The notes beneath the pieces were generated by a model, which searched no databases, was not told where the DNA came from, and saw only the letters and a list, made by a program, of their open reading frames with translations. Shown one piece after another: positions 5,051 through 62,428 of a stretch of 64,000 nucleotides of DNA (position 1 is its first letter; each line of letters opens with the position of its first letter). A program made the position numbers and the translations under genes. The stretch spans positions 124,001 through 188,000 of the forward strand of contig NZ_NINW01000022.1 of NCBI RefSeq assembly GCF_002188465.1, given 5' to 3'. Source of the stretch: Pigmentiphaga sp. NML080357 (GTDB taxonomy: Bacteria > Pseudomonadota > Gammaproteobacteria > Burkholderiales > Burkholderiaceae_B).

Positions 5051-5958
5051 GGCACAATCGAATCCGACGCACCCACGTTCCGGTCCAATCGCCTACCAGA
5101 AGGGGACAACCCATGATGCTCGCGTTGCTGGGTAATTCGTCGCAGTCGAATTTTTTCCGCCAGCCGGCCGCCGCGATGGCGGCCGCCGCTTTCCTGGCGC
5201 TGTCGGGCGCCGTGGGCGCGGCAGACCGGGCCGCTTCTTCCTACGTACCGGAGGTCGGCCAGGAGGGCAAGGACGTGGTGTGGGTGCCGACGCCCCAGCC
5301 GCTGGTCGAGAAGATGCTGGACATGGCCAAGGCCACGCCCCGGGACTACCTCATCGACCTGGGCTCGGGCGACGGACGCACGGTCATCACGGCCGCCAAG
5401 CGCGGCATCCGCGCCCACGGCATCGAGTACAACCCGGAAATGGTCGAACTGGCACGGCGCAATGCCTCCGCCGCGGGCGTGTCCCAGCGTGCCACTTTCG
5501 CCAACGCCGACCTGTTCGATACCGACCTCTCCCGCGCGAGCGTCATTACCCTGTTCCTGCTGCCCACCATCAACGAGAAGCTGCGCCCGCGCCTGCTCGA
5601 GCTCAAGCCGGGAACGCGCGTCGTCTCCAATACTTTCCCGATGGGCGACTGGCAACCCGACGAGCAGGCGACCATCACCCAGGATTGCCAGGGGTGGTGC
5701 ACGGCGCTGCTGTGGATCGTGCCGGCCAAGGTCGAAGGGTCGTGGAAGCTGGGCGGGCAGGAGCTGAAGCTCACGCAGCAATACCAGCGCATCAGCGGCA
5801 CGCTGGCCTCGACGCAGATTGCCGATGCCAGCCTGCGGGGCGACGAGATCTCGTTCACCGTGAACGGCGTGCGCTACCGCGGCAAGGTGAACGGAAAAAC
5901 GATGCAAGGCACGCGCAGCGGCGCCGCTCCGGCCGCCTGGACCGCCGTGCGCAACTGA
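5051..5958 (+). repeat. Duplicated unit, copy 1 (leader plus methyltransferase gene)
   Basis: The homology with copy 2 (7194-8109) begins in non-coding DNA: both read GGCACAATCG about 60 bp before the start codon, then share GCACCCACGTTCCGGTCC and the ribosome-binding region. It runs through the whole coding sequence, so the duplicated unit includes the leader as well as the gene. Confidence 0.85.
5113..5958 (+). CDS. Exported class I SAM-methyltransferase-like protein, copy 1
   Basis: A 281-residue protein with a signal-like N-terminus (hydrophobic AAAMAAAAFLALSGAVGAA, residues about 18-36) followed by a class I methyltransferase fold: motif I LIDLGSGDGRTVITAA, the acidic loop GIEYNPEMVELARRN, and VITLFLLPTINEKL. 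A C-terminal beta-rich extension (from about residue 215) ends the protein. Start 5113 follows AGAAGGGGACAACCC. It is closely paralogous to the gene at 7258. A SAM enzyme with an export signal is odd because SAM is cytoplasmic; the segment could be a membrane anchor, or the fold may bind something else. Confidence 0.8.
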   Translation: MMLALLGNSSQSNFFRQPAAAMAAAAFLALSGAVGAADRAASSYVPEVGQEGKDVVWVPTPQPLVEKMLDMAKATPRDYLIDLGSGDGRTVITAAKRGIRAHGIEYNPEMVELARRNASAAGVSQRATFANADLFDTDLSRASVITLFLLPTINEKLRPRLLELKPGTRVVSNTFPMGDWQPDEQATITQDCQGWCTALLWIVPAKVEGSWKLGGQELKLTQQYQRISGTLASTQIADASLRGDEISFTVNGVRYRGKVNGKTMQGTRSGAAPAAWTAVRN

Positions 5959-7193: not shown

Positions 7194-8109
7194 GGCACAA
7201 TCGATCCGGCGCACCCACGTTCCGGTCCATTCGTCCACCAGAAAAAAGGGGAAACCCATGATGCTCGCGTTGTTGGGTAGTTCGTCGCAGTCGCAAGTGT
7301 TGCGCCGGTGCGCGCGCGGGATGGCCGTCCTGGCTGCCTGCGCGCTGCCGGTCCTGGCCGCCGTCCAGGCGGCGGAAAAGCCGGGTTCGTCGTATGTGCC
7401 CGACGTCGGCCAGGAAGGCAAGGACGTGGTGTGGGTGCCTACGCCCCAGGCCCTGGTCGAGAAGATGATAGACATGACCAAGGCCGCCCCGGGCGACACC
7501 CTGATCGACCTGGGGTCGGGCGACGGGCGCCTGGTGATCACGGCGGCCCGGCGCGGCATCAAGGCCCACGGCATCGAATACAACCCCGACATGGTGGAGC
7601 TGGCGCGCCGCAACGCACAGGCGGCGGGCGTGTCCAGCCGCGCCACGTTCGAGAAGGCGGACCTGTTCGAGACCGACCTGTCCGGCGCCAGCGTCATCAC
7701 GCTGTTCCTCCTGCCTACCATCAACGAGAAACTGCGCCCGCGCCTCCTGGAGCTCAAGCCCGGCACGCGCGTCGTGTCCAATACGTTCCCGATGGGCGAC
7801 TGGCGCCCCGACGAGCAGGCGACGATCACCGAGCAGTGCCAGACCTGGTGCTCGGCATTGCTGTGGATCGTGCCGGCCAAGGTCGAAGGCACGTGGAAGC
7901 TCGGCGGCAGGACCCTGAAGCTGGCCCAGCAGTACCAGCGCGTCAGCGGCACCCTGGACGCCGCGCCGCTGGACGACGCCAGCCTGCGCGGCGACGAGAT
8001 CTCGTTCACCGTGAACGGGGTACGCTATCGGGGCAAGGTAAACGGCAACACCATGCAAGGCACGCGCGCCGGCGGCTCGCCCGCTTCGTGGACTGCCGTG
8101 CGCGGCTGA
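7194..8109 (+). repeat. Duplicated unit, copy 2 (leader plus methyltransferase gene)
   Basis: Second copy of the unit at 5051-5958. It starts at GGCACAATCG 64 bp before the start codon and matches copy 1 through leader, ribosome-binding site and coding sequence. The region upstream of 7194 is not shared. Confidence 0.85.
7258..8109 (+). CDS. Exported class I SAM-methyltransferase-like protein, copy 2
   Basis: A 283-residue paralogue of the protein at 5113, with the same N-terminal MMLALLGSSSQS, a signal-like hydrophobic stretch ending VQAAEKPG, motif I LIDLGSGDGRLVITAA and GIEYNPDMVELARRN. The blocks VITLFLLPTINEKLRPRLL and VVSNTFPMGDW are identical in both copies, while the signal region and linker differ. 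Start 7258 follows AAAAAAGGGGAAACCC. It lies 34 bp before gcvT and could share transcription with it, but no functional link to glycine cleavage is evident. Confidence 0.8.
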   Translation: MMLALLGSSSQSQVLRRCARGMAVLAACALPVLAAVQAAEKPGSSYVPDVGQEGKDVVWVPTPQALVEKMIDMTKAAPGDTLIDLGSGDGRLVITAARRGIKAHGIEYNPDMVELARRNAQAAGVSSRATFEKADLFETDLSGASVITLFLLPTINEKLRPRLLELKPGTRVVSNTFPMGDWRPDEQATITEQCQTWCSALLWIVPAKVEGTWKLGGRTLKLAQQYQRVSGTLDAAPLDDASLRGDEISFTVNGVRYRGKVNGNTMQGTRAGGSPASWTAVRG

Positions 8110-17943: not shown

Positions 17944-20900
17944 ATGCTAGAGAAAATCGTCCGCGCTGCCCTGCAGCAGCGGCTGATCATCGTCGTGCTG
18001 GCGGTGGTGGCCCTGGTCGTCGGCCTGGATGCCATGCGCAAACTGTCGGTCGATGCCTTTCCCGACGTCACCAATGTCCAGGTGCAGATTGCCACGGATG
18101 CCACGGGCCGCTCGCCTGAGGAGGTCGAGCGTTTCGTGACCGTGCCCATCGAGATCGCGATGACCGGCCTGCCGGGGCTGGAGGAAATGCGATCCCTGAA
18201 CAAGCCGGGACTTTCGCTGATCACGCTCGTATTTACCGATGCCACGGATGTGTACTTCGCCCGTCAGCTGGTAATGGAGCGGCTGATCGAGATCGGTTCG
18301 CGCATGCCCACCGGCGTCACGCCCGTGCTCGGACCGGTTTCCACCGGCCTGGGGGAGGTCTATCAGTACACGCTGGACCGGCCCGACGACGGCGACCGTG
18401 AATTGACCCAGAAGGAACTGACGGAGCGGCGCATCGTCCAGGATTGGGTGGTGCGGCCCATGCTGCGGTCCATTCCCCAGGTGGCCGAAATCAATTCCCA
18501 GGGCGGCTACGTCAAGCAGTACCAAGTGCTCGTGAACCCGGACCGCATGAGCCACTATGGCATCACGCTGCAGCAGGTCTACCAGGGCCTGGCGCGCAAC
18601 AACGCCAATTCGGGGGGCGGCATCCTGCCGCACTACGCCGAGCAGTACCTGATCCGCGGCGTGGGGCTGATCGAGAACCTGGGAGACATCGCCAACATCG
18701 TGCTGGCCGAATCCAACGGCACGCCGGTCTACGTGCGCGACGTGGCCGAGGTCACCATGGGCCACGAGGTGCGCTATGGCGCCCTGGTCAAGAACGGGGT
18801 GACGGAATCCGTCGGCGGCATCGTCATGATGATGCGCGGCGGCAACGCCAAGGAAGTGGTGGCGCGCATCAAGGAACGGGTGGCCGAGATCAACAGCCAG
18901 GGAATGCTGCCCGACGGCCTGCAGATCGTGCCTTATTACGACCGCAGCGAACTGGTCGACGCGGCCTTGTGGACCGTGGCCAAGGTGCTGATGGAGGGCG
19001 TGCTCTTCGTCGTCATCATCCTGTTCCTGTTCCTGGGCGACGTGCGGTCCTCGCTGATCGTCGTGGCGACCCTGGTCTTGACGCCGCTTCTGACCTTTTT
19101 CGCGATGAACAGGCTGGGCATTTCGGCCAACCTGATGTCGCTCGGCGGGCTGGCGGTCGCCATCGGGCTGATGGTGGACGGTTCCGTGGTCGTGGTCGAG
19201 AACGCCTTCGCCCACCTGGGCCACGCCAAGGACAGCGGCGAAAGCAAGGCCCGCATCATCCTCAAGGCGGTGGCCGAGGTAGCCACGCCGGTGGTGTTCG
19301 GCATCGGCATCATCATCCTGGTGTTCCTGCCGCTCATGACGCTGCAGGGCATGGAAGGCAAGATGTTCGCGCCGCTCGCCTACACCATTGCCATCGCGCT
19401 CGCCATTTCGCTGGTCCTGTCCCTGACGCTGTCGCCCGTGCTGTCCTCCTATCTGCTCAAGGGCGGGGCGGAGCACGATACGCGGGTCATCGCCTTCATG
19501 AAGCGCCACTACCTGCGCATGCTCGACTGGGTGCTGCGCAACGCCAAGAAGACGGTCCTGATGGCGGTACTGGCCTTCGCCGCGTCGCTCGCGATGCTGC
19601 CCTTGCTCGGAACGGCCTTCATCCCCGAGATGAAAGAAGGCTCCATCGTGCCAGGCATCAACCGGGTGCCCAACATCTCGCTGGAGGAATCCATCGAGCT
19701 GGAAAAGCAGGCCATGAAAATCGTCATGGGCGTGCCGGGCGTGAAATCGGCGATCTCCGGCGTCGGACGCGGCGAAAGCCCGGCCGATCCGCAGGCGCAG
19801 AATGAATCCACGCCCATCGTCAGTCTCAAGCCGCAGGACGAGTGGCCGGAAGGCTGGACGCAAGACACCATCGCCGACGAGATCCGCAAGCGGCTCGATG
19901 TCATCCCGAGCGCCCAGATCATCATGGCGCAGCCGATCTCGGATCGCGTCGACGAAATGGTGACCGGCGTGCGCTCGGACGTCGCGGTCAAGGTATTCGG
20001 CGAAGACCTCGACCGCCTGCTGCAAAAGGCGCAAGAGATCGCCCGCGTAGCCGAGACGGTGCAGGGCGCGCGCGACGTGCGCGTCGACCGGGTCAGCGGC
20101 CAGCAATACCTGTCGATCAATATCGACCGGCAGGCCATCGCCCGCTATGGCCTGAACGTTTCCGACGTGCACGACGTGATCGAGGTCGCCATTGCGGGCA
20201 AGGTGGCGACCGAGATCTTCGAAGGCGAGCGGCGCTTCTCGGCGGCGGTGCGTCTGCCCGAGGATTTCCGCGGCAGCGTGCCGGCCATCCGGCAGATACT
20301 GCTGACCACGCCGCACGGCGTGCGCGTGCCGCTGGAGAGCCTGGCCAGGATCGAGGTGCGCGACGGTCCGGCCCAGGTCAGCCGGGAAGGCGGCAAGCGG
20401 CGGGTGGTGGTCGCCATCAACGTGCAGGACCGCGACCTGGGAGGATTCGTGGCCGAGCTGCAGCAGACCGTGCAGGCCAAGGTCCAGCTGCCCACCGGCT
20501 ACTACCTCGAGTGGGGCGGGCAGTTCCAGAACATGGAGCGCGCGCTGGGACACCTGTCCATCATCGTGCCCGCCACCGTGGCCGCCATCTTCTTCCTGCT
20601 GTTCCTGCTGTTCAACTCGGTCCGCTATGCGACGCTGATCATCACCGTGCTGCCGTTCGCCTCCATCGGCGGGATCATCGGGCTGTTCGTCACGGGCGAA
20701 TACCTGTCGGTACCGGCCTCGGTGGGATTCATCGCGCTGTGGGGCATCGCCGTGTTGAACGGGGTGGTGATGGTGTCCTACATCCGCAAGCTGCGGATCG
20801 AGGGCAGGCCGCTGGCCGAAGCCGTGGTCGAGGGCGCGACCATGCGGTTCCGGCCCGTCATGATGACGGCCACCGTGGCCATGCTCGGCCTCGTGCCTTT

Positions 20901-21045
20901 CCTGTTCGCCACGGGGCCCGGGTCGGAAGTGCAGCGGCCGCTGGCCGTGGTGGTGATCGGCGGGCTGATCACCTGCACGCTGCTCACGCTGCTGGTGCTG
21001 CCCACGCTGTACCGCTGGTTCGATGAGGAGGCGCCGGAGGCATGA
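17944..21045 (+). CDS. Heavy-metal RND efflux pump (CzcA/CusA family)
   Basis: A 1033-residue proton-driven inner-membrane pump with two repeats of six helices and large periplasmic loops. The N-terminus MLEKIVRAALQQR and FPDVTNVQVQIAT are typical of the HME-RND group. In the TM4 motif the sequence is AIGLMVDGSVVVVEN with D412 and E419 matching CzcA Asp408 and Glu415, but the first acidic residue (CzcA Asp402) is Ala406. That, with GSVVVVEN instead of the CusA AIVMIEN, leaves metal specificity open. The operon ends in a PII-like gene, and a dispersed repeat begins 4 bp after the stop. Confidence 0.9.
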   Translation: MLEKIVRAALQQRLIIVVLAVVALVVGLDAMRKLSVDAFPDVTNVQVQIATDATGRSPEEVERFVTVPIEIAMTGLPGLEEMRSLNKPGLSLITLVFTDATDVYFARQLVMERLIEIGSRMPTGVTPVLGPVSTGLGEVYQYTLDRPDDGDRELTQKELTERRIVQDWVVRPMLRSIPQVAEINSQGGYVKQYQVLVNPDRMSHYGITLQQVYQGLARNNANSGGGILPHYAEQYLIRGVGLIENLGDIANIVLAESNGTPVYVRDVAEVTMGHEVRYGALVKNGVTESVGGIVMMMRGGNAKEVVARIKERVAEINSQGMLPDGLQIVPYYDRSELVDAALWTVAKVLMEGVLFVVIILFLFLGDVRSSLIVVATLVLTPLLTFFAMNRLGISANLMSLGGLAVAIGLMVDGSVVVVENAFAHLGHAKDSGESKARIILKAVAEVATPVVFGIGIIILVFLPLMTLQGMEGKMFAPLAYTIAIALAISLVLSLTLSPVLSSYLLKGGAEHDTRVIAFMKRHYLRMLDWVLRNAKKTVLMAVLAFAASLAMLPLLGTAFIPEMKEGSIVPGINRVPNISLEESIELEKQAMKIVMGVPGVKSAISGVGRGESPADPQAQNESTPIVSLKPQDEWPEGWTQDTIADEIRKRLDVIPSAQIIMAQPISDRVDEMVTGVRSDVAVKVFGEDLDRLLQKAQEIARVAETVQGARDVRVDRVSGQQYLSINIDRQAIARYGLNVSDVHDVIEVAIAGKVATEIFEGERRFSAAVRLPEDFRGSVPAIRQILLTTPHGVRVPLESLARIEVRDGPAQVSREGGKRRVVVAINVQDRDLGGFVAELQQTVQAKVQLPTGYYLEWGGQFQNMERALGHLSIIVPATVAAIFFLLFLLFNSVRYATLIITVLPFASIGGIIGLFVTGEYLSVPASVGFIALWGIAVLNGVVMVSYIRKLRIEGRPLAEAVVEGATMRFRPVMMTATVAMLGLVPFLFATGPGSEVQRPLAVVVIGGLITCTLLTLLVLPTLYRWFDEEAPEA

Positions 21046-21049
21046 CGAA

Positions 21050-21132
21050 CCCACCCCTACGCGCTGCGCGCGCCCCTCAAGGGGCGGCACTGGCGGACCG
21101 GCGGAGCCGGATCCGCGGTGCCCTGGGGCGGT
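21050..21132 (+). repeat. Dispersed stop-proximal repeat, single unit (R1)
   Basis: A single unit reading CCACCCCTACGCGCT, then GCGCGCCCC-TCAA-GGGGC, TGGCGGACCGGC-GGA-GCCGGATCCGC and GTGCCCTGG. It starts 4 bp after the czcA stop. The core GGACCGGC-GGA-GCCGGATCC folds as a small hairpin with one bulged A. The same core occurs at 38543, 57865 and 59935, where units are paired as inverted repeats. Confidence 0.8.
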
Positions 21133-36229: not shown

Positions 36230-36381
36230 GGGCCTGGGCTGGGAAGTGCGTCGGCGCCTGGGAAGCGCGGCGCCGCCTGACTGGATTATCGCACGGCGGA
36301 GCGGTCCGCCGCCGTGCGCCCGGTGCGCTGGCACGAGTCCTGCATGCGATAGTTACGGTTGCTCGTTCCTTGCCGTCTTCC

Positions 36382-38559
36382 ATGGGTTTCGCTTCCTTGC
36401 TCAATACGCTTCGCCGCCTGTGGGCGCACGACACTTTCGTCTACAGCTTGCGGGTATTCATCGCGCTGGCCAGCGTCATGGGGCTGTGCTGGGGGCAGGG
36501 CCGCATGGACCTGGTCATTCCCGCGTTCCTGGGCGTCATCGCCTGCGCCCTGGCCGAAACCGACGACAACTGGCGCGGCCGGCTGCTGGCCCAGCTGGTC
36601 ACGCTCGCGTGCTTTGCGGTCGCGGCCATCGCCGTGAAAGCGCTGTTCCCCTATCCATGGCTGTTCCTGGCGGGAATGGCGCTCTCCACGTTCTGCCTGA
36701 CGATGCTGGGCGCCATCGGCGAGCGTTACCGCGCCATGGGCTACGCCACGCTGATACTGGCCATCTACACCACCATAGGCGTGGAGCAGAGCCGCGGCGG
36801 CGGCTTCTGGCGCGAACCGGCGCTGCTGATGGCCGGCGCGGCCTGGTACGGCGCGCTGTCGGTGCTGTGGTCGGCATTGTTCGCGCATCAGCCGGTGCAG
36901 CAGCGGCTGGCCGGCCTGTACGCGGTCCTGGGCGATTACCTGGTCCTGAAGGCAGCGCTTTTCGAGCCGGTGCGCGGCATCGACGTGGAGGCACGCCGCC
37001 TGGAGCTGGCGCAGCTCAACAGCAAGGTGGTGGCGGCGCTGAACGCGGCCAAGGAGAGCATTTTCAGCCGCCTCGGGCGTAGCCGCCCGGGCCGCAAGAC
37101 CGCGCGGTACCTGCGGCTCTATTTCATCGCCCAGGACGTGCACGAGCGCGCCAGTTCCTCGCATTATCCCTACAACGACCTGGCCGACGCGTTTTTCCAC
37201 AGCGACATCATGTTCCGCTGCCAGCGCTTGCTGAGCCTGCAGGGGCACGCATGCCGGCGCCTGGCGCGCGCCATCCGGATGCGGCAGCCCTTCGACGCCG
37301 GCGACGAGACGCGGCAGGCCAGGGCCGACCTGGATGCCTCGCTCGATTACCTGCGCCGCCAGAACCGGCCCGAGTGGGCACGGCTGCTGCGGTCGGTGGG
37401 GGCGCTGTCGGCCAATCTAGCCGAGCTGGACCGGCGGCTGGGCAGCGCCAGCAACCCCGACAAACTCGACGAGCAACAGCAGGACAACAGCCTTTTCGAT
37501 CGTTCCCCCCAATCCCTCGGCGAAGCCGTCGACCGGGTCCGGCTGCAATTGACGCCCGGCGCGCCGGTGTTCCGCTACGCGGTGCGGTTGACGCTGGCGA
37601 TGGCGGCGGGCTACGGCATGCTGCATCTGGTCCATCCCGAGCAAGGGTATTGGATCGTGCTGACCACGCTCTTCGTTTGCGCGCCCAGTTATGGCGCCAC
37701 CCGTACCCGCCTGGTGCAGCGGGTGCTGGGCACGGTGCTCGGCCTGGCGCTGGGGTGGGTGCTGTTCAAGCTCTTTTCCAGCCTGCTGGTGCAGGCCTTG
37801 TTCGCGGTGGCGGCGGGGGTGGTGTTCTTCGCTACCCGTTCGAGCCGGTACATGGTGGGCACGGCCGCGATCACGGTGCTGGTGTTGCTGTGCTTCAACC
37901 AGATCGGCAATGGCTACGATCTGTTCGTGCCGCGCCTGGTGGATACGCTGCTGGGAGCGCTGATCGCGGGCGTGGCCGTGCTGGTGGTGCTGCCGGATTG
38001 GCAAGGAAGGCGGCTGAACCAGGTGGCGGCCAATGCGCTGGCGGCCAACAGCCGCTATCTGCGGGAGATCATGATCCAGTACGAGATCGGCAAGCGCGAC
38101 GACCTGGCCTATCGGCTGGCGCGCCGCAATGCACACAATGCGGATGCGGCGTTTTCAATGGCGATGTCGAACATGCTGGCCGAACCGGGGCATTTCCGGC
38201 GGGATGCGGAGACGGGGCTGCGGTTTCTGACGCTGTCGCACACGCTGCTGAATTATCTTTCGGGGCTGGGGGCCCATCGGGAGGGGCTGGCCGACCATGC
38301 GAGCGATGCGGAGATCGCCCGCATGACGAGGGGGGTGATCGATGCGCTCGACGGGATCGCCGCGGGACTGGCGAATCGGACGCCGCTGGCGGCGAGCAGC
38401 GCCGAGGAAGAAGCGCTGGCGCGGGCGCTGGAGCAGCGGCCCGATGACGATGCCGATGACGGGCATCGGCTGGTGCTGACTCAACTGGCCTTGATCGGCG
38501 GGCTGCTGGGACCGTTGCGGAAGGTGGCCAGCCGACTATGGGCCCCCCCTACGCGCTGA
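36382..38559 (+). CDS. YccS/FUSC-family inner-membrane protein
   Basis: A 725-residue membrane protein with two clusters of hydrophobic helices (about residues 20-160 and 400-545) separated by a soluble region, the layout of YccS/YhfK and aromatic-acid efflux (AaeB-like) proteins. The second cluster starts FRYAVRLTLAMAAGYGMLH and carries GYWIVLTTLFVCAPSYGATR, typical of the FUSC domain. Start 36382 (MGFASLLNTL) is preferred to a TTG four codons earlier. Its last codons and stop lie inside the dispersed repeat at 38543, so the natural C-terminus may have been altered. Confidence 0.85.
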   Translation: MGFASLLNTLRRLWAHDTFVYSLRVFIALASVMGLCWGQGRMDLVIPAFLGVIACALAETDDNWRGRLLAQLVTLACFAVAAIAVKALFPYPWLFLAGMALSTFCLTMLGAIGERYRAMGYATLILAIYTTIGVEQSRGGGFWREPALLMAGAAWYGALSVLWSALFAHQPVQQRLAGLYAVLGDYLVLKAALFEPVRGIDVEARRLELAQLNSKVVAALNAAKESIFSRLGRSRPGRKTARYLRLYFIAQDVHERASSSHYPYNDLADAFFHSDIMFRCQRLLSLQGHACRRLARAIRMRQPFDAGDETRQARADLDASLDYLRRQNRPEWARLLRSVGALSANLAELDRRLGSASNPDKLDEQQQDNSLFDRSPQSLGEAVDRVRLQLTPGAPVFRYAVRLTLAMAAGYGMLHLVHPEQGYWIVLTTLFVCAPSYGATRTRLVQRVLGTVLGLALGWVLFKLFSSLLVQALFAVAAGVVFFATRSSRYMVGTAAITVLVLLCFNQIGNGYDLFVPRLVDTLLGALIAGVAVLVVLPDWQGRRLNQVAANALAANSRYLREIMIQYEIGKRDDLAYRLARRNAHNADAAFSMAMSNMLAEPGHFRRDAETGLRFLTLSHTLLNYLSGLGAHREGLADHASDAEIARMTRGVIDALDGIAAGLANRTPLAASSAEEEALARALEQRPDDDADDGHRLVLTQLALIGGLLGPLRKVASRLWAPPTR

Positions 38560-38788
38560 CGCGCGCCCCCCAGGGGGCGATGCGGGTGGACCGGCGGAGC
38601 CGGATCCACCGCATCCTGGGTCTAGTACCGTTATCTTGGGGTGGGGCACCTTTGCTTCGCTGGCTGCCAGCGGTAGCAACGGTGCATAAACCAAGAAACT
38701 CGTACTAGACCCAGGGCGCCGCGGATCCGGCTTTGCTGGTCCGCCAGCGCCGCCCCCTGGGGCGCGCGCGTCAGCGCGTAGGGGGGTC
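38543..38788. repeat. Dispersed stop-proximal repeat, paired inverted units (R2)
   Basis: Two inverted units face each other between the convergent yccS-like and ggt genes. The left unit reads CCCCCCTACGCGCTGACGCG and then the hairpin CGCCCCC-CA-GGGGGCG; the right end is its inverted counterpart CAGCGCGTAGGGGGG. GGACCGGC-GGA-GCCGGATCC hairpins and CTAGTAC/GTACTAG flank a middle part holding CGCTGGC-T-GCCAGCG. The yccS-like stop is inside the left unit and the ggt stop touches the right one. Confidence 0.88.
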
Positions 38789-40373
38789 AATACCCGACCG
38801 CCTGCCCGTCGCGCCGGGAGTCCGAGGCGGCGATGTAGCCTTCCTCGCTGCGGTAGATGAGCTGCGCGGTGCCGAAGTCCAGGCTTTGCGGTTCGGACAC
38901 CTCGATCGCGTGGCCGAGGCCGCGCAGGCCTTCGACCACGGCAGCGGGAGTATGGGATTCCACGCGGACCATGCCCTCGTCGACACGGAAGCGCGGCGCA
39001 TCGCTCATGGCCTGGGGGTTCTGGCCGTAGGCGCCGAGGCGCACCATCATCTGTACGTGGCCCTGGGCCTGCATGGAGCCGCCCATGACGCCGAAGGCCA
39101 TGACGGGCTGGCCGTCGCGCGTGACGAAGCCGGGGATGATGGTGTGCAGCGGTTTCTTGGAGGGGCCGACGCAGTTGACGTGTCCGGGGCGCAGGTTGAA
39201 GCCTATGCCGCGGTTGTGCAGCGAGATGCCGGTTCCCGGCACGACCACGCCGGAACCGAAGCCCTGGAAGTTGGACTGGATGAACGACACCATGGTGCCG
39301 GCCTCGTCGGCCGCAGCCAGGTAAACGGTGCCGCCGAGCTTGGGCGTGCCGGCGGTCGGGGCGCAGGCGCGCGCGGGATCGATCAAGGCGGCGCGCTGGG
39401 CGAGGTAGGCGGGGTCCAGCAGGTCGGCCGGCGCCAGGCGCATGGTGGCGGGATCGGCGATGTGCTCGTGCAGGTCGGAGAACGCGAGTTTCATCGCCTC
39501 GATCATGGCGTGGTACATGGCGGGGCTGTCCAGGCCCATGCCTTCGAGGTCCAGGCGCTCAAGCATGCCGAGCGCGGCGAGGGCGGCGATGCCCTGGCCG
39601 CTGGGCGGGATCTCGTGCAAGGTATAGCCGCGGAACTGCTGGCTCAGCGGCTCGACCCACTGGGCCTCGTGGGCAGCGAGGTCGGCCAGCGTGAGGGTGC
39701 CGCCGGTCTGCCGGGCGAAGTCGACGATCTTCTGCGCCAGCGCGCCGCGGTAGAAGCTGTCGCCACGGGTCTGGGCGATGCTCTGCAGCGTGTCGGCCTG
39801 CTCGGGAAAGCGCCAGCGGTCGCCGGCCTGCGGGGTCTTGCCGTTGCGGAAGAAGGCCTCGGCGAAGCCCGGTTCGTTCGCAAGCTTCGGCGCCTGCCGG
39901 GCCCACAGCCGCGCGATCTGCGGGGTGACCTGGAAGCCCTGCCTGGCATACTCGAGCGCGGGCTGGAACAGGCGCTCGAACGGCAGCTTGCCGAAGCGCT
40001 CGGACAGCGCCCGCCAGCCGGCGACCTGGCCGGGCACGGTGACGGCGTCCCAGCCGGTGACGGGCATGGCGGTCTTGCCGCGGAAGTGATCCAGGGTCCA
40101 GGCGGCGGGCGAACGGCCGCTGGAACTGAGGCCGTGCAGGCGTCCCTCGTGCCAGACCAGGGCGAACATGTCGCCGCCGATGCCGTTCATGACCGGTTCG
40201 ACGACCGTCAGCGCGATGGCGCAGGCCAGCGCCGCGTCGATGGCGTTGCCGCCTTCGTACAGCATGCGCAGGCCCGCCTGGGCGGCCAGCGGCTGGCTGG
40301 TAGTGACCGCGTTGGCGGCCAGGAGCGGCATTTTCTGCGAGGGGTAGGGGAATTTCCAGTCGAAGGGCAGCAT
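38787..40373 (-). CDS. ggt: Gamma-glutamyltransferase family protein
   Basis: A 528-residue Ntn hydrolase of the gamma-glutamyltranspeptidase family. The nucleophile and cleavage point is Thr349 in KLGGTVYLAAADEAGTMVS, and the N-terminal AANAVTTSQPLAAQAGLRML and GGNAIDAALACAIALTVVEP are characteristic. No signal peptide is apparent, unlike classical periplasmic GGT, and HTTHYS is replaced by GGTVYL. It may therefore be a cytoplasmic GGT-like acylase or amidohydrolase. Start 40373 matches family length; an upstream ATG at 40412 would add 13 residues. The repeat R2 abuts its stop codon. Confidence 0.88.
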   Translation of the reverse strand: MLPFDWKFPYPSQKMPLLAANAVTTSQPLAAQAGLRMLYEGGNAIDAALACAIALTVVEPVMNGIGGDMFALVWHEGRLHGLSSSGRSPAAWTLDHFRGKTAMPVTGWDAVTVPGQVAGWRALSERFGKLPFERLFQPALEYARQGFQVTPQIARLWARQAPKLANEPGFAEAFFRNGKTPQAGDRWRFPEQADTLQSIAQTRGDSFYRGALAQKIVDFARQTGGTLTLADLAAHEAQWVEPLSQQFRGYTLHEIPPSGQGIAALAALGMLERLDLEGMGLDSPAMYHAMIEAMKLAFSDLHEHIADPATMRLAPADLLDPAYLAQRAALIDPARACAPTAGTPKLGGTVYLAAADEAGTMVSFIQSNFQGFGSGVVVPGTGISLHNRGIGFNLRPGHVNCVGPSKKPLHTIIPGFVTRDGQPVMAFGVMGGSMQAQGHVQMMVRLGAYGQNPQAMSDAPRFRVDEGMVRVESHTPAAVVEGLRGLGHAIEVSEPQSLDFGTAQLIYRSEEGYIAASDSRRDGQAVGY

Positions 40374-40524
40374 GGCGGCAAATGGCAAGTCGTCCTGTTC
40401 ACAGCATACCAAGCCGGGGGCCGAGGGCGTCTTTCCCTGCGTCCTCTACAATAGGCCGTTCGCTAGGCCGCGCCGGCGCGCCGTTCGCCGCGCCCTGGGA
40501 GGCGGCCTTCTCTTTGCCATCGCC

Positions 40525-56971: not shown

Positions 56972-57769
56972 TTAGATGGGCAACGGTTCGACCAGCAGTT
57001 TCTCGCCCTCGAGGCGGATCAATGCCGGTTTGTCCTGGATGTCGGGGGACAGGGCCGTGGTCATCGTGCGGTAGACGCCCGCGACGGCGACCAGCTCTGC
57101 CTCGAATTGGGTGGTGTAGATGCGCGCCTTGGTGTCGCCGCGCGCCCCGGCCATGGCCTTGCCGCGCAGCGGGCCATAGACGTGGATGTTGCCGTCGGCG
57201 ATCACTTCGGCGCCGTGGCTGACCACGCCCATGACGATGAGGTCGGCGTGGCGGGCGTAGACTCGCTGGCCCGAGCGCAGCGGCTTTTCGATGAGCAGCG
57301 TCGGCACCGCGTGCGGCGCCGCCGGGGGCTGCTCCGCCACGGTTTCGATCACGACCTCGGCCGCCGGCGGTGTAGGGGCGGCCGCCTCCCGGGCGGGAGC
57401 GGGCGCCTCGCGTTTCGCCTCGGGAGCCGGCTCGGCCTGGTCCGGCGCCGGCGAACGGGCGGGCGCCGCGGGCAGCGACAGCAGCGCCAGCCCGGCCTGG
57501 CGGGCCGAATCGGCCAGTTCGTCGGGCGCCATGATGCCTATCGTGGGCAGGCTATGCCGCTTGAGCGCATCGACCAGCTGCCGCCAGTCCAGCGGGGCGG
57601 CCAGGCGGGAGGCGTCGATGACCACCGGCTCGTCTTCGAAGAAACCGGCTGCTTCCTCCATGCGCTGGTCCAGCGCGGCCAGGACGGCCTGGAGGTCGGA
57701 GGTGTGAAGCACCACGCGGATGGCGTAGAGCGAGGTGCTTTTGATGTCGAGTACGGGACTGGCTTCCAT
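56972..57769 (-). CDS. minC: Septum site-determining protein MinC
   Basis: A 265-residue inhibitor of FtsZ polymerisation. The N-terminal domain (SPVLDIKSTSLYAIRVVLHT) is followed by a long Ala/Pro/Glu-rich linker (about residues 110-155) and the C-terminal beta-helix (ADLIVMGVVSHGAEVIADGN, HVYGPLRGKAMAG) that binds MinD. Start 57769 (MEASPVL) is chosen because the conserved region begins at once; an ATG at 57790 would add seven residues. About 75 bp upstream lies a run of 20 G (C on the coding strand). Confidence 0.95.
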   Translation of the reverse strand: MEASPVLDIKSTSLYAIRVVLHTSDLQAVLAALDQRMEEAAGFFEDEPVVIDASRLAAPLDWRQLVDALKRHSLPTIGIMAPDELADSARQAGLALLSLPAAPARSPAPDQAEPAPEAKREAPAPAREAAAPTPPAAEVVIETVAEQPPAAPHAVPTLLIEKPLRSGQRVYARHADLIVMGVVSHGAEVIADGNIHVYGPLRGKAMAGARGDTKARIYTTQFEAELVAVAGVYRTMTTALSPDIQDKPALIRLEGEKLLVEPLPI

Positions 57770-57844: not shown

Positions 57845-57864
57845 GGGGGGGGGGGGGGGGGGGG
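57845..57864. repeat. Homopolymer of 20 G residues (poly-C on the minC strand)
   Basis: Twenty uninterrupted G residues lie between repeat R3 and the minC leader, 75 bp before the minC start. Read in the minC direction it is C20. Such tracts slip during replication and can vary promoter spacing; assembly error in tract length is also possible. Confidence 0.85.
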
Positions 57865-58114
57865 AGCCCACCCCCTGGCGCTTCGCGCTCCCCCTCAAGG
57901 GGGCGGCGCTGGCGGACCGGCAAAGCCGGATCCGCGGCGCCCTGGGTCTAGCGCGGTTTTCTTGGGTTGCGGCACCGTTGCTACCGCTGGCAGCCAGCGA
58001 AGCACCGGCGCTACATTCCAAGAAAGCGGTCCTAGACCCAGGATGCGGTGGATCCGGCTCCGCCGGTCCACCCGCATCGCCCCCTGGGGGGCGCGCGTCA
58101 GCGCGTAGGGGGGA
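57865..58114. repeat. Dispersed stop-proximal repeat, paired units (R3)
   Basis: A roughly 250-bp bipartite repeat that is almost exactly the reverse complement of R4 (59935-60185). The end facing glnS carries CAGCGCGTAGGGGGG and lies 4-5 bp from the glnS stop codon. The other end (CCCCCTGGCGCTTCGCGCTC then CCCCCTCAAGGGGG) meets the poly-G tract. Middle parts include CGCTGGC-A-GCCAGCG and the CTAGACCCAGG boundary shared by all paired copies. Confidence 0.9.
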
Positions 58115-58118
58115 TCCT

Positions 58119-59882
58119 CTACTTCCAGGTGTCGCGGAGAGTCGTCGTGCGGTTGAAGACCGGGGCCAGGGTGGAAGAGGCTTCGCGGTCGGCGACGAAG
58201 TAGCCGAAGCGCTCGAACTGGTACGAGGTGCCGGGGGTGCCGTCGGTGCCCGGCTCCAGGTAGCCCTGGACGACTTCGATGGAGTTGGGGTTCAGGTATT
58301 CGATGAAATCCTTGCCGCCCGCGCTGGGGTTGGGCTCGGTGAACAGCCGGTCGTACAGGCGGATCTCGGCGGGCACGGCCGTGGGGGCATGCAGCCACGT
58401 GATATTGCCCTTGACCTTCACGCTGTCCGCCCCGGGGGTGCCGCTGCGGGTCTCGGGCAGATATTCGGCCTGGACTTCCACGACGTTGCCGGCATCATCC
58501 TTGACGAAGCCGGTGCATTTGACGACGTAGCCGTACTTCAGCCGGACCATGTTGCCGGGGAAGAGTCGGAAGAACCCTTTGGGCGGGTTCTCGGCGAAGT
58601 CTTCCTGCTCGATCCAGAGCTCGCGGCCGAACGGGAACACCCGCTTGCCCATTTCGGGGTGGTGCGGATGGCGCGGCGCCGAGCATTCCTCCGTCTGGCC
58701 CTCGGGATAGTTGGTGATGACCAGCTTGAGCGGCCTCAGCACGGCGACCGTGCGGGGGGCCTTGGGGTCGAGGTCGTCGCGCAGCGCCTGCTCCAGCAGG
58801 GAGTAGTCGATCCACGAGTCGGATTTCGAGGCCCCGGTGCGCTCGCACAGCAACTGGATCGCCTCGGGGGTGTAGCCGCGCCGGCGCAGGCCCAGGATGG
58901 TGGGCATGCGGGGGTCGTCCCAGCCGCTGACGTGGCCGTCGTTGACCAGTTGCAGCAGCTTGCGCTTGCTGGTGATGATGTAGGTCAGGTTCAGGCGCGC
59001 GAATTCGTGCTGGTGCGGCAGCGGATCGGCCAGCAGGCCGAGGTCGCGCAGCCGGTTCAGCAGCCAGTCGTAGAACGGCCGCTGGTCTTCGAATTCGAGC
59101 GTGCAGATGCTGTGCGTGATGCCCTCGAGCGCGTCCTCGATGGGGTGGGCGTAGGTGTACATCGGGTAGATGCACCATTTGTCGCCCGTGCGGTGGTGCG
59201 TGGCATGGCGGATCCGGTAGAGCACCGGGTCGCGCAGGTTCATGTTGGGCGAAGCCATGTCGATGCGTGCGCGCAACGCCATGGAGCCGTCCGGATGCCT
59301 GCCGTCGCGCATTTCCCGCAGCCGCGCCAGGGATTCCTCGGCCGGCCGGGCGCGCCAGGGCGAATCCGTGCCCGGCTCCGTCAGCGTGCCGCGCATGGCC
59401 CGGATTTCCTCGGGGCTTTGTTCGTCGACGTAGGCGTCGCCCGCCATGACCAGCGCCTCGGCCGCTTCGTACATGAAGTCGAAGTAGTCGCTGGCATGGT
59501 AGTAGTGCTCGGAACCGAAGGCGGTCCAGTCGTAGCCCAGCCAGCGGACGGCGTCGACGATGGCGTCGACGTAGCGCTGCTCTTCCTTTTCGGGATTGGT
59601 GTCGTCCAGCCGCAGGTGGCACACGCCGCCGTAGTCGCGCGCCAGGCCGAAGTTCAGGCTGATGGCCTTGGCGTGGCCGATATGCAGGTAGCCGTTGGGT
59701 TCCGGCGGAAAGCGCGTACGGATGCGCGCCGGATCGAGCGGCGCATCCGCCTGGGCCGAGGCCGGGCCGGGGTGCCCGGCCCAGCGTTTCTCGGCGTAGC
59801 GCCCCGCGGCCAGGTCCGCTTCGACGATATTGCGCAGGAAATTGGTGGCCGGAGCCGGAGCAGGTTTATTGGGTGTGGTCAT
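58119..59882 (-). CDS. glnS: Glutaminyl-tRNA synthetase
   Basis: A 587-residue class I synthetase. The HIGH motif is at residues 67-70 (PPEPNGYLHIGHAKA), the DDTNPEKEE loop follows, and the KMSKS equivalent is ITSKRKL. The C-terminal anticodon-binding barrels carry PLKLVITNYPEGQ. It charges tRNA-Gln. It is bracketed by repeats R3 and R4 in opposite orientation; the repeat on its 3' side begins right after its stop codon. Confidence 0.97.
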   Translation of the reverse strand: MTTPNKPAPAPATNFLRNIVEADLAAGRYAEKRWAGHPGPASAQADAPLDPARIRTRFPPEPNGYLHIGHAKAISLNFGLARDYGGVCHLRLDDTNPEKEEQRYVDAIVDAVRWLGYDWTAFGSEHYYHASDYFDFMYEAAEALVMAGDAYVDEQSPEEIRAMRGTLTEPGTDSPWRARPAEESLARLREMRDGRHPDGSMALRARIDMASPNMNLRDPVLYRIRHATHHRTGDKWCIYPMYTYAHPIEDALEGITHSICTLEFEDQRPFYDWLLNRLRDLGLLADPLPHQHEFARLNLTYIITSKRKLLQLVNDGHVSGWDDPRMPTILGLRRRGYTPEAIQLLCERTGASKSDSWIDYSLLEQALRDDLDPKAPRTVAVLRPLKLVITNYPEGQTEECSAPRHPHHPEMGKRVFPFGRELWIEQEDFAENPPKGFFRLFPGNMVRLKYGYVVKCTGFVKDDAGNVVEVQAEYLPETRSGTPGADSVKVKGNITWLHAPTAVPAEIRLYDRLFTEPNPSAGGKDFIEYLNPNSIEVVQGYLEPGTDGTPGTSYQFERFGYFVADREASSTLAPVFNRTTTLRDTWK

Positions 59883-59934: not shown

Positions 59935-60185
59935 TCCCCCCTACGCGCTGACGCGCGCCCCCCAGGGGGCGATGCGGGTGGACCGGCGGAGCCGGATCCA
60001 CCGCATCCTGGGTCTAGGACCGCTTTCTTGGAATGTAGCGCCGGTGCTTCGCTGGCTGCCAGCGGTAGCAACGGTGCACAAACCAAGAAACTCGTACTAG
60101 ATCCAGGGCGCCGCGGATCCGGCTTTGCCGGTCCGCCAGCGCCGCCCCCTTGAGGGGGAGCGCGAAGCGCCAGGGGGTGGACCCC
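59935..60185. repeat. Dispersed stop-proximal repeat, paired units (R4)
   Basis: The left end CCCCCCTACGCGCTGACGCG with hairpin CGCCCCC-CA-GGGGGCG matches R2. The right end (CCCCCTTGAGGGGGAGCGCG, AAGCGCCAGGGGGTGG) abuts the stop codon of the histidine-kinase gene. It is the inverted partner of R3 across glnS. Its middle holds CGCTGGC-T-GCCAGCG. It fills nearly the whole space between glnS and the kinase gene. Confidence 0.9.
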
Positions 60186-61685
60186 TCACTCCAGGGGAAG
60201 CCTGACGTTGACCTGCAGTCCCCCGTGCGGGCCCTGCTCGAGCGATATGCCGCCGCCATGGGCGCGCGCGATGGTGTCGACCAGGGCGAGTCCCAATCCC
60301 ACGTTGCCGGTCCGGCTGCGCGCCGCGTCCAGGCGCGAGAAGGGCTGCAGCGCCTCGGCGCGCCGCTCGGGCGGGATGCCCTGGCCATGGTCCGCCACCG
60401 TCAGCAAGGCGTGGCCGTCGCCAGCGGACAGCGCGACGTGGATGGGCGGCGCGCCGTGCTGGAGCGCGTTGTGTATCAGGTTGTCGACCAGGCGGCCCAG
60501 GGCCACCGCATCGCCGGCTACCAGCACGTCGTCGGCCGCCGACGTCAGTTCGACCTCGCAGCCGGTTCCCCGCCAGGTATGCAGCCGTTCGCGCAGCCAA
60601 TCGCTCAGGTCGATGGGCGTGAAGTGATAAGTGGCCGGGTCGGTGCCGCGCACGAAGCCGATGAACTGGTCGACGATGTGCTGCATGTCCTCGGCATCCT
60701 GCCGCAAGCCGTCCTTGAGTGCCGGATCGTCGACCATCTCGGTGCGCAGGCGCATCCGGGACAGCGGGCCCTTGAGGTCGTGCGGCAAGCCGGCCAGCAG
60801 CGTTCGGCGCACCCGATCGGATTCATTCAGCGCATCGAGCATGGCATTGAAGCGTTCGCCGAGGACCCGGGTCTCGTGCGGGCCGGCCGGCTCGACCCGT
60901 TCCGGCGTGCCGGCCGCCAGGCGGTCGGCGGCGTGCGCGAGCGAGGTGATGGGACGCGTGATGTGCCAGGAGAACCAGGCGGCGAGCAGCAGGATCGCCC
61001 CCAACCCGCCCAGCCACATGACGACCAGGGGCGTCCTGACCGGAGGGCTGATGCGTTCGAGCGAGATGACCAGCCACGACCGCAGGAGCGGTTCGTCGTC
61101 ATTGCCGAGTTCGGGATTGAGCGAAATGAACAGGGCGGGCTCGGGTCCGCGCGACAGGGCGACCCGTGTGCCATCCGCCAATTGCATGTTCAGGCGCTGG
61201 ATCAGGCCGCGCATGGCGTGGCGCGGGTCGTCGTCGGCCCAGCGCGGCGCTTCCCGCGGTCCTCGGCGCTCGGGGCCGAAGCGGAACTCTCCGGGCCGGT
61301 AGTCGGGCGGCATGCGTCCGCCAGGCAGCGGTTCGAAACGGGGATGGGCGGGGCGTCCCTCGCGCCGGGCGCGTTCGTCGCCGAAGCGCGGTCGGGGCGG
61401 GATGGGACGGGAGACCAGCCGCCATTCGCCTTGCGAGGCGGCCGCCACGAAGGCGGCGCGCTCGTTCTCGTCGATTCGGGAGATGGCGGCGCGCAAGGTC
61501 CGTATGGTGGTGGCCATGAGGTCCGGCGCCACATTCTCGAGGACGTTGCGCCGGTAGTGCTCGATGGCAAGGAACGTGGCGGCCTGGGCGACCAGCACGG
61601 AGCCCAGGATCAGCAGGACGAGGCGTGCGCGCAGCGAGCGCGGTACCAGGCGGTCCGCCCAGCCGCGTGGCGCGGGAGCGTTCAT
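60186..61685 (-). CDS. Sensor histidine kinase with an Arg/Pro-rich periplasmic loop
   Basis: A 499-residue membrane kinase: TM helices at about 20-42 and 218-241, HAMP, phosphoacceptor His302 (LAGLPHDLKGPLSRM), N box DNLIHNALQHG, G1 VADHGQGIP and G2 GNVGLGLALVDTIARA. The periplasmic sensor (43-217) includes a stretch at about 91-160 very rich in Arg, Pro and Gly, unusual for a sensor domain and probably disordered and strongly basic. Its gene overlaps the response-regulator gene by four bases. Repeat R4 abuts its stop codon. Confidence 0.92.
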   Translation of the reverse strand: MNAPAPRGWADRLVPRSLRARLVLLILGSVLVAQAATFLAIEHYRRNVLENVAPDLMATTIRTLRAAISRIDENERAAFVAAASQGEWRLVSRPIPPRPRFGDERARREGRPAHPRFEPLPGGRMPPDYRPGEFRFGPERRGPREAPRWADDDPRHAMRGLIQRLNMQLADGTRVALSRGPEPALFISLNPELGNDDEPLLRSWLVISLERISPPVRTPLVVMWLGGLGAILLLAAWFSWHITRPITSLAHAADRLAAGTPERVEPAGPHETRVLGERFNAMLDALNESDRVRRTLLAGLPHDLKGPLSRMRLRTEMVDDPALKDGLRQDAEDMQHIVDQFIGFVRGTDPATYHFTPIDLSDWLRERLHTWRGTGCEVELTSAADDVLVAGDAVALGRLVDNLIHNALQHGAPPIHVALSAGDGHALLTVADHGQGIPPERRAEALQPFSRLDAARSRTGNVGLGLALVDTIARAHGGGISLEQGPHGGLQVNVRLPLE

Positions 61686-62428
61686 GGAAGCGGCGGCGAA
61701 GCCGGCGCCGCGTCGCCGTTGGCGGTGAGGGGCGTGAAGCGGTAGCCGATACCCCAGACGGTCTGGATCCACTTCGGCTGCTTCGGATCGTCCTCGATGG
61801 CGCGGCGCAGGCGCAGGATGGCGATGTCGATGGCGCGATCGTTGCGCTCGCCGGCTTCGTCGTCGCGCGCCAGTGCCAGCAGCCGTTCGCGCGACAGCGG
61901 CTTGCCCGCGTTGCGCAGCAGCGCTTCCAGCAGGTTGAACTCGCCGCCGGTCAGCCGGACCGGCTCGGCGCCGCGGTGCAGGGTGCGGGCCTTGGCGTCG
62001 AACACGAACGGACCGAACGAGACCGGGGCATCCTTGACCAGGGCCGATGGGCCGCTCTTGCGCCGCAGCACGGCTTCGATGCGTGCCAGGAGCTCGCGCG
62101 GGTCGAACGGCTTGCCCAGGTAGTCGTCCGCGCCCGATTCCAGTCCGATGATGCGGTCCACCGTTTCGTCGCGGGCGGTCAGCAGGATCACCGGCAGGTC
62201 CTCGCCGCGTTCGCGCAGCCGCCGGCACGCCTCCGCGCCATCTCCGCCAGGCAACATGCGATCCAGCACCAGCAAGGCGGGCCCGTAGCGGGTGATGCGC
62301 GCTTCCAGGTCGGTCGCGTCGGGCGCGAGCAGGGTGTCGTAGCCCTGCTTGTTGAGGTAGTCGGCGAGCAACTGGCGCAGGGCCGGGTCGTCATCGACCA
62401 CGAGCAGTTTGGTGGCGGATTTTTCCAT
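61682..62428 (-). CDS. OmpR-family response regulator
   Basis: A 248-residue regulator with acidic residues D12-D14, phosphoacceptor Asp56 (LLVLDRMLPGGDG), Lys106 (LGKPF) and a C-terminal winged helix (LTGGEFNLLEALLRNAGKPL, VWGIGYRF). It is the first gene of the pair with the histidine kinase. The Spy/CpxP-like gene starts 152 bp away on the other strand, so this regulator probably controls it in an envelope-stress response. Confidence 0.93.
   Translation of the reverse strand: MEKSATKLLVVDDDPALRQLLADYLNKQGYDTLLAPDATDLEARITRYGPALLVLDRMLPGGDGAEACRRLRERGEDLPVILLTARDETVDRIIGLESGADDYLGKPFDPRELLARIEAVLRRKSGPSALVKDAPVSFGPFVFDAKARTLHRGAEPVRLTGGEFNLLEALLRNAGKPLSRERLLALARDDEAGERNDRAIDIAILRLRRAIEDDPKQPKWIQTVWGIGYRFTPLTANGDAAPASPPLP

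Follow-up and report, generated by a model that had tools for sequence, protein, structure and literature searches.

Palindromic repeats at gene ends in a 64-kb window

The DNA analysed here is a 64-kb stretch (64,000 nucleotides, the window) of a 5.73-Mb genome, G000. A repeat unit occurs in it once by itself (21050-21128) and three times as an inverted pair of about 245 bp, the pairs starting at 38543, 57867 and 59936 (Table 1). A first-pass annotation had listed units at 21050, 38543, 57865 and 59935, and all four are present, the last two with the starts given above. It had described only the element at 38543 as an inverted pair; this is correct, and the units at 57865 and 59935 turned out to be inverted pairs as well. 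With GGACCGGC-NNN-GCCGGATCC as core pattern and up to three mismatches allowed, we found nine matches in the window compared with 1.54 expected. Two of the nine (55400 and 55477, three mismatches each) are not units. No Rfam family reached its gathering score in the window, and a search over one of the pairs gave chance-level matches only.

Table 1. Repeat elements and adjoining genes (window positions)
Feature	Position	Strand	Remarks
AcrB/AcrD/AcrF-family transporter (czcA-like)	17944..21045	+	PF00873; stop adjoins unit
Single unit, B-type left end CCCACCCC	21050..21128	+	4 nt past czcA-like stop; closed three-hairpin fold, z -2.36
yccS-like FUSC protein	36370..38559	+	PF12805; final codons and stop within unit (...SRLW-APPTR*)
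Inverted pair	38543..38786	.	left arm 38543-38620 (+), right arm about 38710-38786 (-)
Gamma-glutamyltranspeptidase (ggt)	38787..40412	-	PF01019; C-terminus matches relatives; stop abuts pair
Inverted pair	57867..58113	.	between glnS (stop 5 nt away) and upstream side of gene 56972-57769
Glutaminyl-tRNA synthetase-like (class I E/Q; glnS)	58119..59882	-	PF00749, PF03950, PF20974; flanked by a pair on both sides
Inverted pair	59936..60180	.	between kinase stop (60186) and glnS upstream side
Histidine kinase	60186..62228	-	PF02518 and PF00672 over cut-off, PF00512 below its cut-off; stop about 5 nt from pair

The units lie very close to stop codons. Five unit-to-gene junctions had been singled out in which the unit starts about 0-14 bp from the stop, and the measured distances bear this out. 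The gaps are 4 nt for the czcA-like gene (stop ends at 21045, unit begins at 21050), 0 nt for ggt (unit ends at 38786, stop begins at 38787), 5 nt for glnS (58113 and 58119) and 5 nt by eye or 8 nt by script for the kinase (unit ends near 60180, stop begins at 60186). The yccS-like stop (38557-38559) indeed falls inside the unit that begins at 38543, as had been observed before: it comes from the left arm of the pair, and the right arm extends up to the ggt stop. The window has seven outer ends in total, and the two that the annotation had not listed face gene starts, at distances of 97 and 53 nt.

Two further features of the window are recorded here. A run of 20 G at 57845-57864 separates the adjacent pair from the start side of gene 56972-57769. 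It is absent from the orthologous spacers of six relatives and is possibly a slippage site or an assembly artefact. The stretches 5062-5493 and 7204-7644 resemble each other (73-90% in pieces), and a 40-bp piece that is 90% alike precedes the longer match.

Unit structure and copy number

The pattern is abundant in the genome as a whole: G000 contains 256 cores with at most one mismatch, compared with 2 for the reversed control pattern. The last pair of the window served as query for genome searches, and blast with the 251-bp pair matched 86 places in G000, more than there are pairs since one pair may match on both strands.

Seven genomes of the genus (G000, G190-G194 and G196) supplied 44 units for an alignment of 86 columns. 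The unit is about 80 nt long and forms three hairpins that are backed by covariation. With the three-hairpin structure that we had written for the alignment, 98.7% of cells pair, compared with 90.0% after shuffling. Double-sided stem changes were seen in 96 cells (27.3 in shuffled alignments and at most 15 when the structure was slid), and the covariation score was 0.277 versus 0.114 for shuffles. The number of further pair types, 20, showed no excess over shuffles (19.3). Folding of single units gave a three-hairpin minimum with closed ends in four of five units tested (z -2.36 to -3.66). The exception was the right arm at 38710-38788, which took a different fold (z -1.33). The predicted folds have a clamp of C-run and CCTGGG at the unit ends. 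When the whole pair at 38543 is folded (246 nt), it forms one long hairpin of -216.4 kcal/mol with a z of -20.5.

Copies occur singly, in head-to-tail arrays or as heterodimeric inverted pairs of about 245 bp. In 21 of 27 inverted pairs from G000, one arm has a GATGC outer stem and a GGA loop and the other a GGCGC outer stem and an AAA loop. Since one heterodimer predominates, the pair is a composite that was copied whole and did not arise by fresh fold-back of one arm. Eight pairs were seen in other species of the genus, with other arm combinations. G106, a genome from another genus, has mostly head-to-tail arrays with core spacings of 58-136. On G000 contig C9 (40887-41416, L073), six cores stand head-to-tail with 102-bp spacing. 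Some units (L114, L126, L127, L129 and L130, junctions of G190, G192, G195 and G197) harbour a second, nested palindromic repeat, CCGCTACGCGGCAGCCCCC or a variant of it, which separates their left hairpin from the core.

Distribution across the Burkholderiales

Exact cores are numerous (167-232) in seven of the 11 genomes of the genus, and the remaining four have 0-7. They were found in 65 of 268 genomes of the family; of 399 genomes sampled from the order, 10 had them, G000 being one of these. We built a covariance model of the units and ran it on 20 genomes; up to 150 candidates were scored in each, so that hit counts are lower bounds. Nine of the 20 genomes gave hits: G106, both Achromobacter, both Polaromonas and single Variovorax, Pseudacidovorax, Xylophilus and Diaphorobacter genomes. 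The tried genomes of Eoetvoesiella, Alcaligenes, Extensimonas, Giesbergeria, Tepidimonas, Burkholderia, Massilia, Herbaspirillum and Aromatoleum gave none. Bordetella and Achromobacter had been named at the outset as the place to look for the unit. The covariance model found it in two of two Achromobacter genomes; in the two Bordetella genomes it had no match (model R1, E 0.001). In a further genus, g8, five of 15 genomes match the model with 1-9 hits at E 0.1, and ten have none.

Phage records contained no match to the repeat, and plasmids contained two partial matches. Part of a unit (L213, 2501-2559, on the Methylibium plasmid NC_008826.1) falls within an ORF whose annotation is transposase.

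One end of the unit is anchored at stop codons

Distance and orientation of the units relative to neighbouring genes were tabulated. Genes were called with our own dicodon scorer and not with an annotation pipeline, and odd gaps (e.g. start gaps of 1433 and 2006 nt) suggest that some genes were missed. The G000 sample consisted of unit-holding stretches, namely contigs C1-C12 (100 of the 256 sites) and segments of the contig to which the window belongs. We were able to place 85 of the 90 clusters: 61 in tandem, 20 in convergent and 4 in divergent junctions. Clusters inside a gene or at an edge were set aside (5 of 90 in G000, 2 of 44 in other genomes of the genus, 3 of 44 in G106), and expected values assume uniform placement in the remaining spacer.

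Outer ends that face a stop codon lie less than 10 nt from it in 57 of 78 cases in G000, compared with 18.0 expected. The corresponding counts are 4 of 34 for outer ends facing a start (5.0 expected), 0 of 23 for inner ends facing a stop (2.5 expected) and 0 of 35 for inner ends facing a start (3.6 expected). The other genomes of the genus, whose rows partly overlap the G000 junctions by orthology, gave 27 of 37 for outer ends at stops (5.0 expected) and 0 of 5 for inner ends; G106 gave 15 of 34 (3.2 expected) and 0 of 14. With a limit of 20 nt, outer and inner ends near stops number 60 of 78 and 1 of 23 in G000 and 18 of 34 and 2 of 14 in G106, and in the other genomes of the genus the inner end is near a stop in 3 of 5.

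The same tendency was seen in other genera, among loci that are best-scoring hits and not a random sample, some of which look like orthologues or neighbours. The outer end faces a stop in 8 of 8 placed loci from Achromobacter, 14 of 18 from g8, 10 of 12 from genus g9 and 13 of 14 from Comamonadaceae (Polaromonas, Variovorax, Xylophilus, Pseudacidovorax and Diaphorobacter), with a gap below 20 nt in 8, 13, 8 and 10 loci, respectively. Four of the 60 loci in this survey are from G106, and one of them has an outer gap below 20 nt. Four of the 60 could not be placed (three inside a gene call, one at a contig end). Four of 11 inner ends came within 20 nt of a stop: L244, L233 (from G106), L280 and L289, the last two probably mis-oriented. 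Three g8 rows (L278, L280, L289) look mis-oriented by the script and were counted unchanged.

The first-pass annotation had considered the placement too regular for chance, and the excess of anchored outer ends in G000 and its recurrence in other genera agree with this. It had also stated that units read away from the gene. This is right for most unidirectional clusters in tandem junctions (33 versus 11 in G000, 25 versus 6 in G106), and the rule belongs to the outer end. Random placement with no orientation bias at stops, which the annotation had named as the contrary outcome, is not what the tabulation gave.

The inner boundary was set at CCTGGG. Related sequence sometimes runs past it, and inner gaps may therefore be overstated. 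Pairs have both ends defined and are free of this doubt: in the 17 tandem junctions that hold a pair, the stop-side gap is below 10 nt in 12, compared with 3.6 expected. These pairs also bear on another explanation, a purely selfish repeat that inserts at random and is left room just behind stops by selection against hits in genes, promoters or ribosome-binding sites. A protected promoter zone before the next gene would push insertions towards the stop, and with 60 nt before the next start protected, 7.4 of the 17 are expected versus 12 seen (P 0.0005). In 9 of the 17 tandem-junction pairs, the start-facing outer end is 50-135 nt away from the start, where promoters usually lie, as would suit such a repeat. 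What it does not predict is the polarity, that is, the complete lack of inner ends within 10 nt of a stop in all three samples and the orientation bias of the unidirectional clusters. We therefore consider a purely selfish repeat unlikely.

The anchored ends in G000 stand at 27 TGA, 19 TAG and 7 TAA codons. A single stop word as target can be rejected, since all three occur. TAG is mildly over-represented at anchored ends in G000 (19 of 53, compared with 125 of 491 stops) and in excess in G106 (9 of 15, compared with 77 of 365); perhaps it is part of the B-type leader. We also looked at native strong hairpins, which start less than 10 nt from the stop in 8 of 22, 25 of 85 and 20 of 70 cases. 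Hairpins are thus often located just behind a stop in these genomes, although their positioning is less sharp than that of the units.

Site turnover between related species

Fourteen orthologous junctions have a unit in at least one genome. According to the core finder, 11 of them differ in occupancy, and three are filled in every genome compared. The yccS|ggt junction of the window is an example of the former. Its pair is found in G000 alone and in none of the six other genomes of the genus that have the junction. In five of these six pair-free relatives, the yccS and ggt stops overlap or are 29-30 nt apart, a spacing that also fits a selfish repeat. The C-terminus that the relatives share is replaced in G000 yccS by APPTR and a unit-derived stop, and ggt is intact to its last codon. 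By this comparison, the pair in the window has truncated yccS at its C-terminus. Unit-derived residues also form the ends of two further G000 gene calls.

Two junctions of the atp operon are occupied by units, atpA|atpG and atpD|atpC. At the second of these, seven species have a unit at the same place behind the stop; their stem types differ yet stay complementary. Three species have a short empty spacer there, and the G198 spacer holds no recognisable core.

These sites bear on the idea that insertion is aimed, with fixed polarity, at gene 3' ends, either at the translation stop region or at a native 3' hairpin. The yccS|ggt pair, present in one of seven genomes, already ends at the ggt stop, as aimed insertion would have it. 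The use of all three stop codons at anchored ends is compatible with it too, in the sense that no one stop word explains the sites. At tctC|ald, five unit-free relatives have T-run hairpins 0-12 nt behind the stop (judged by eye), which could have offered such a native target. On the other hand, anchoring spans 0-9 nt with no fixed offset, and the loss of the yccS tail means that sequence there was also deleted or replaced. No fresh insertion was caught. All in all, aimed insertion seems rather improbable to us.

The sequence TTCCCCCTA is present at two empty sites and could be a target or a deletion scar. A mini-hairpin made of two fused outer ends, CCCCCTACGCGCGTAGGGGG, stands before TTT at L099 (about 4799) and, with a single base changed, at L101 (about 4350). 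This fused-end mini-hairpin stands behind the stop where G192 and G197 carry pairs, and may be a scar or a precursor.

Mobilisation

The RAYT profile (Y1_Tnp, PF01797) had no match in G000; as a control, it matched five of 14 known genomes. It had none either in the core-rich genomes G190-G192, G195-G197, G105 and G106, nor in G656 and G657. A RAYT origin is thus unsupported for the core-rich genomes. Y1_Tnp scored over cut-off in four of the 18 genomes examined besides G000, namely G198, G661, G663 and G664. G198 has one exact core, and the other three, all Comamonadaceae, have 13-45 model hits each, so that Comamonadaceae carriers can have a RAYT match.

Target duplications were not seen. 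The longest word shared by the two edges averaged 3.37 versus 3.44 for 27 pairs, 4.75 versus 4.86 for 63 G000 singles and 4.86 versus 4.69 for 43 singles from other genera (28 of 200 shuffles as high). A MITE with target duplication can be rejected on these grounds, as neither pairs nor singles have direct repeats at their edges. That no mobilising enzyme was found, nor any target duplication, also speaks against aimed insertion. A mobile Burkholderiales hairpin directed by a non-RAYT mechanism to the stop region, its outer end abutting any stop and no target word being shared, is a quite unlikely reading in our judgement.

Termination and selection at the RNA level

The units could also be transcription terminators, bidirectional ones in the case of the pairs. 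Their distribution is in line with such a role. In the fetched G000 stretches and the window, units occupy 20 of 58 junctions between convergent genes, 57 of 258 between tandem genes and 3 of 64 between divergent genes; these frequencies are relative since the stretches had been chosen for holding units. The hairpins are very stable, which would suit a terminator as well. T-rich stretches were defined as six or more T among 8 nt, no further than 60 nt past the inner end. They follow 15 of 58 single-orientation G000 clusters on the unit sense strand, compared with 3 of 58 on the opposite strand and with 9 of 137 gene ends that lack a unit. For G106, the numbers are 5 of 40, 2 of 40 and 9 of 121. 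The single unit of the window has GTTTTTG in the corresponding place. This sense-strand bias fits transcription in the sense of the unit; it makes a terminator more probable and a purely selfish repeat less so, and some single units may terminate weakly.

Other results argue against termination as the main role. A consensus scan found no hairpin with T-run in the four elements of the window (the two sites it reported lie in glnS), and T5 or A5 occurs inside just 4 of 27 pairs. The units at atpA|atpG and atpD|atpC argue against strong termination, which should cost downstream subunits. Thus, of the terminator option raised in the first-pass annotation, the T-rich stretches in G000 stand in favour, and the window's own units and those inside the atp operon do not. 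We regard a terminator as decidedly improbable.

If the sense RNA were selected, G.U should exceed A.C in the stems. The counts are 29:24 in the genus and 9:7 in G106. Selection at the RNA level is therefore not supported by a G.U excess, and with the two near parity the structure may be kept at the DNA level only, e.g. by template switching within palindromes. The units may raise mRNA stability.

A 3' hairpin block as possible role

The reading that we put forward, with about even confidence, is that of a REP-like, non-autonomous palindromic repeat of Burkholderiales whose copies behind stops are preferentially kept as 3' hairpin blocks. Copies would spread as hairpin DNA by a route that is independent of RAYT and free of target duplication. 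Purifying selection would then remove copies that disturb genes, and those that immediately follow a stop and have their outer end facing it would preferentially be kept. By analogy to what REP/BIME elements are thought to do, the retained copies would extend the mRNA 3' end with a compact hairpin block. Most units do not resemble classical terminators, although some single ones may contribute to termination as well. Much of the 3'-end pattern could be the outcome of selection.

We prefer the REP-like block because of the core count in G000 over its control, the covariation, the predominance of one heterodimer, the polar anchoring and its recurrence in other genera, the sense-strand T-rich stretches, the site turnover, the lack of a RAYT in the core-rich genomes and the filled atp junctions. 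The near parity of G.U and A.C, the protected promoter zone, the native hairpins near stops, the possibly overstated inner gaps, the inner ends that sometimes come within 20 nt of a stop and the Y1_Tnp matches over cut-off in four genomes weigh against it. Since sister species offer both empty and filled sites, delivery of the repeats to 3' ends can be told apart from survival at that position, and one can ask if subunit dosage is affected by hairpins that separate atp cistrons.

Relation to known repeats

The first-pass annotation had drawn an analogy to REP/BIME elements. It is a good one: the copies are dispersed, structured and mainly located downstream of genes, which makes the repeat REP-like in the broad sense. 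REPINs and BIMEs contain inverted doublets that form one long hairpin, and the pairs described here are inverted doublets of this kind. Their arms, however, are larger and of two types, and no RAYT was found in the core-rich genomes examined. A literature search, which covered few subscription papers, returned no description of stop-codon anchoring for this repeat family.

Hot et al. (2011, PMC3110155) described the Beta-proteobacterial repeat element (BRE), represented by B. pertussis 3605317-3605401, and gave 8-22 copies for a Bordetella genome. According to the available part of that paper, it is intergenic, 75-91 bp in full length with a GC content of 69%, sometimes overlaps ORF ends by a few bases, forms tandem arrays, varies in number and is reported from Alcaligenaceae and Comamonadaceae including Polaromonas. 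Compared by description only, our repeat is like BRE in size, GC content, tandem arrays and its host range in Alcaligenaceae and Comamonadaceae. Unlike BRE, it was not found by our model in two of two Bordetella genomes, which belong to other species than those of the BRE study. Stop anchoring, folding and inverted pairs, all seen here, are absent from the BRE description as far as the available text goes (PMC3110155). Given a comparison by description and two Bordetella genomes without hits, we do not file the repeat as BRE. Bor-1, another Bordetella repeat (Petrillo et al. 2008, PMC2267715), is likewise structured and intergenic in the accessible portion of its description (93-117 bp model, 128-196 copies), and resembles ours by description only.

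The GTAG/CGTC-tagged and RAYT-linked REPs are palindromic, 20-40 bp long, carry a terminal tag and are associated with RAYTs (Di Nocera et al. 2013, PMC3733652). In the part of that study available, they often form inverted pairs, lie mainly in convergent and tandem junctions and in some cases supply stop codons; most conv-REPs are less than 20 bp from 3' ends in two species. Our repeat shares with them the palindromic nature, the inverted pairs, the proximity to 3' ends and the supply of stops. It differs in its length of about 80 nt, in its three hairpins and in the lack of a RAYT in the core-rich genomes examined. A terminal GTAG/CGTC tag is not found either; the reversed A-type end has GTAG beside the hairpin, followed by a G-run. 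Small palindromic repeats are widespread among bacteria, and a preference for 3' ends had already been noted for them in the accessible text (PMC3733652); here, it is sharp, one-ended and seen in several genera.
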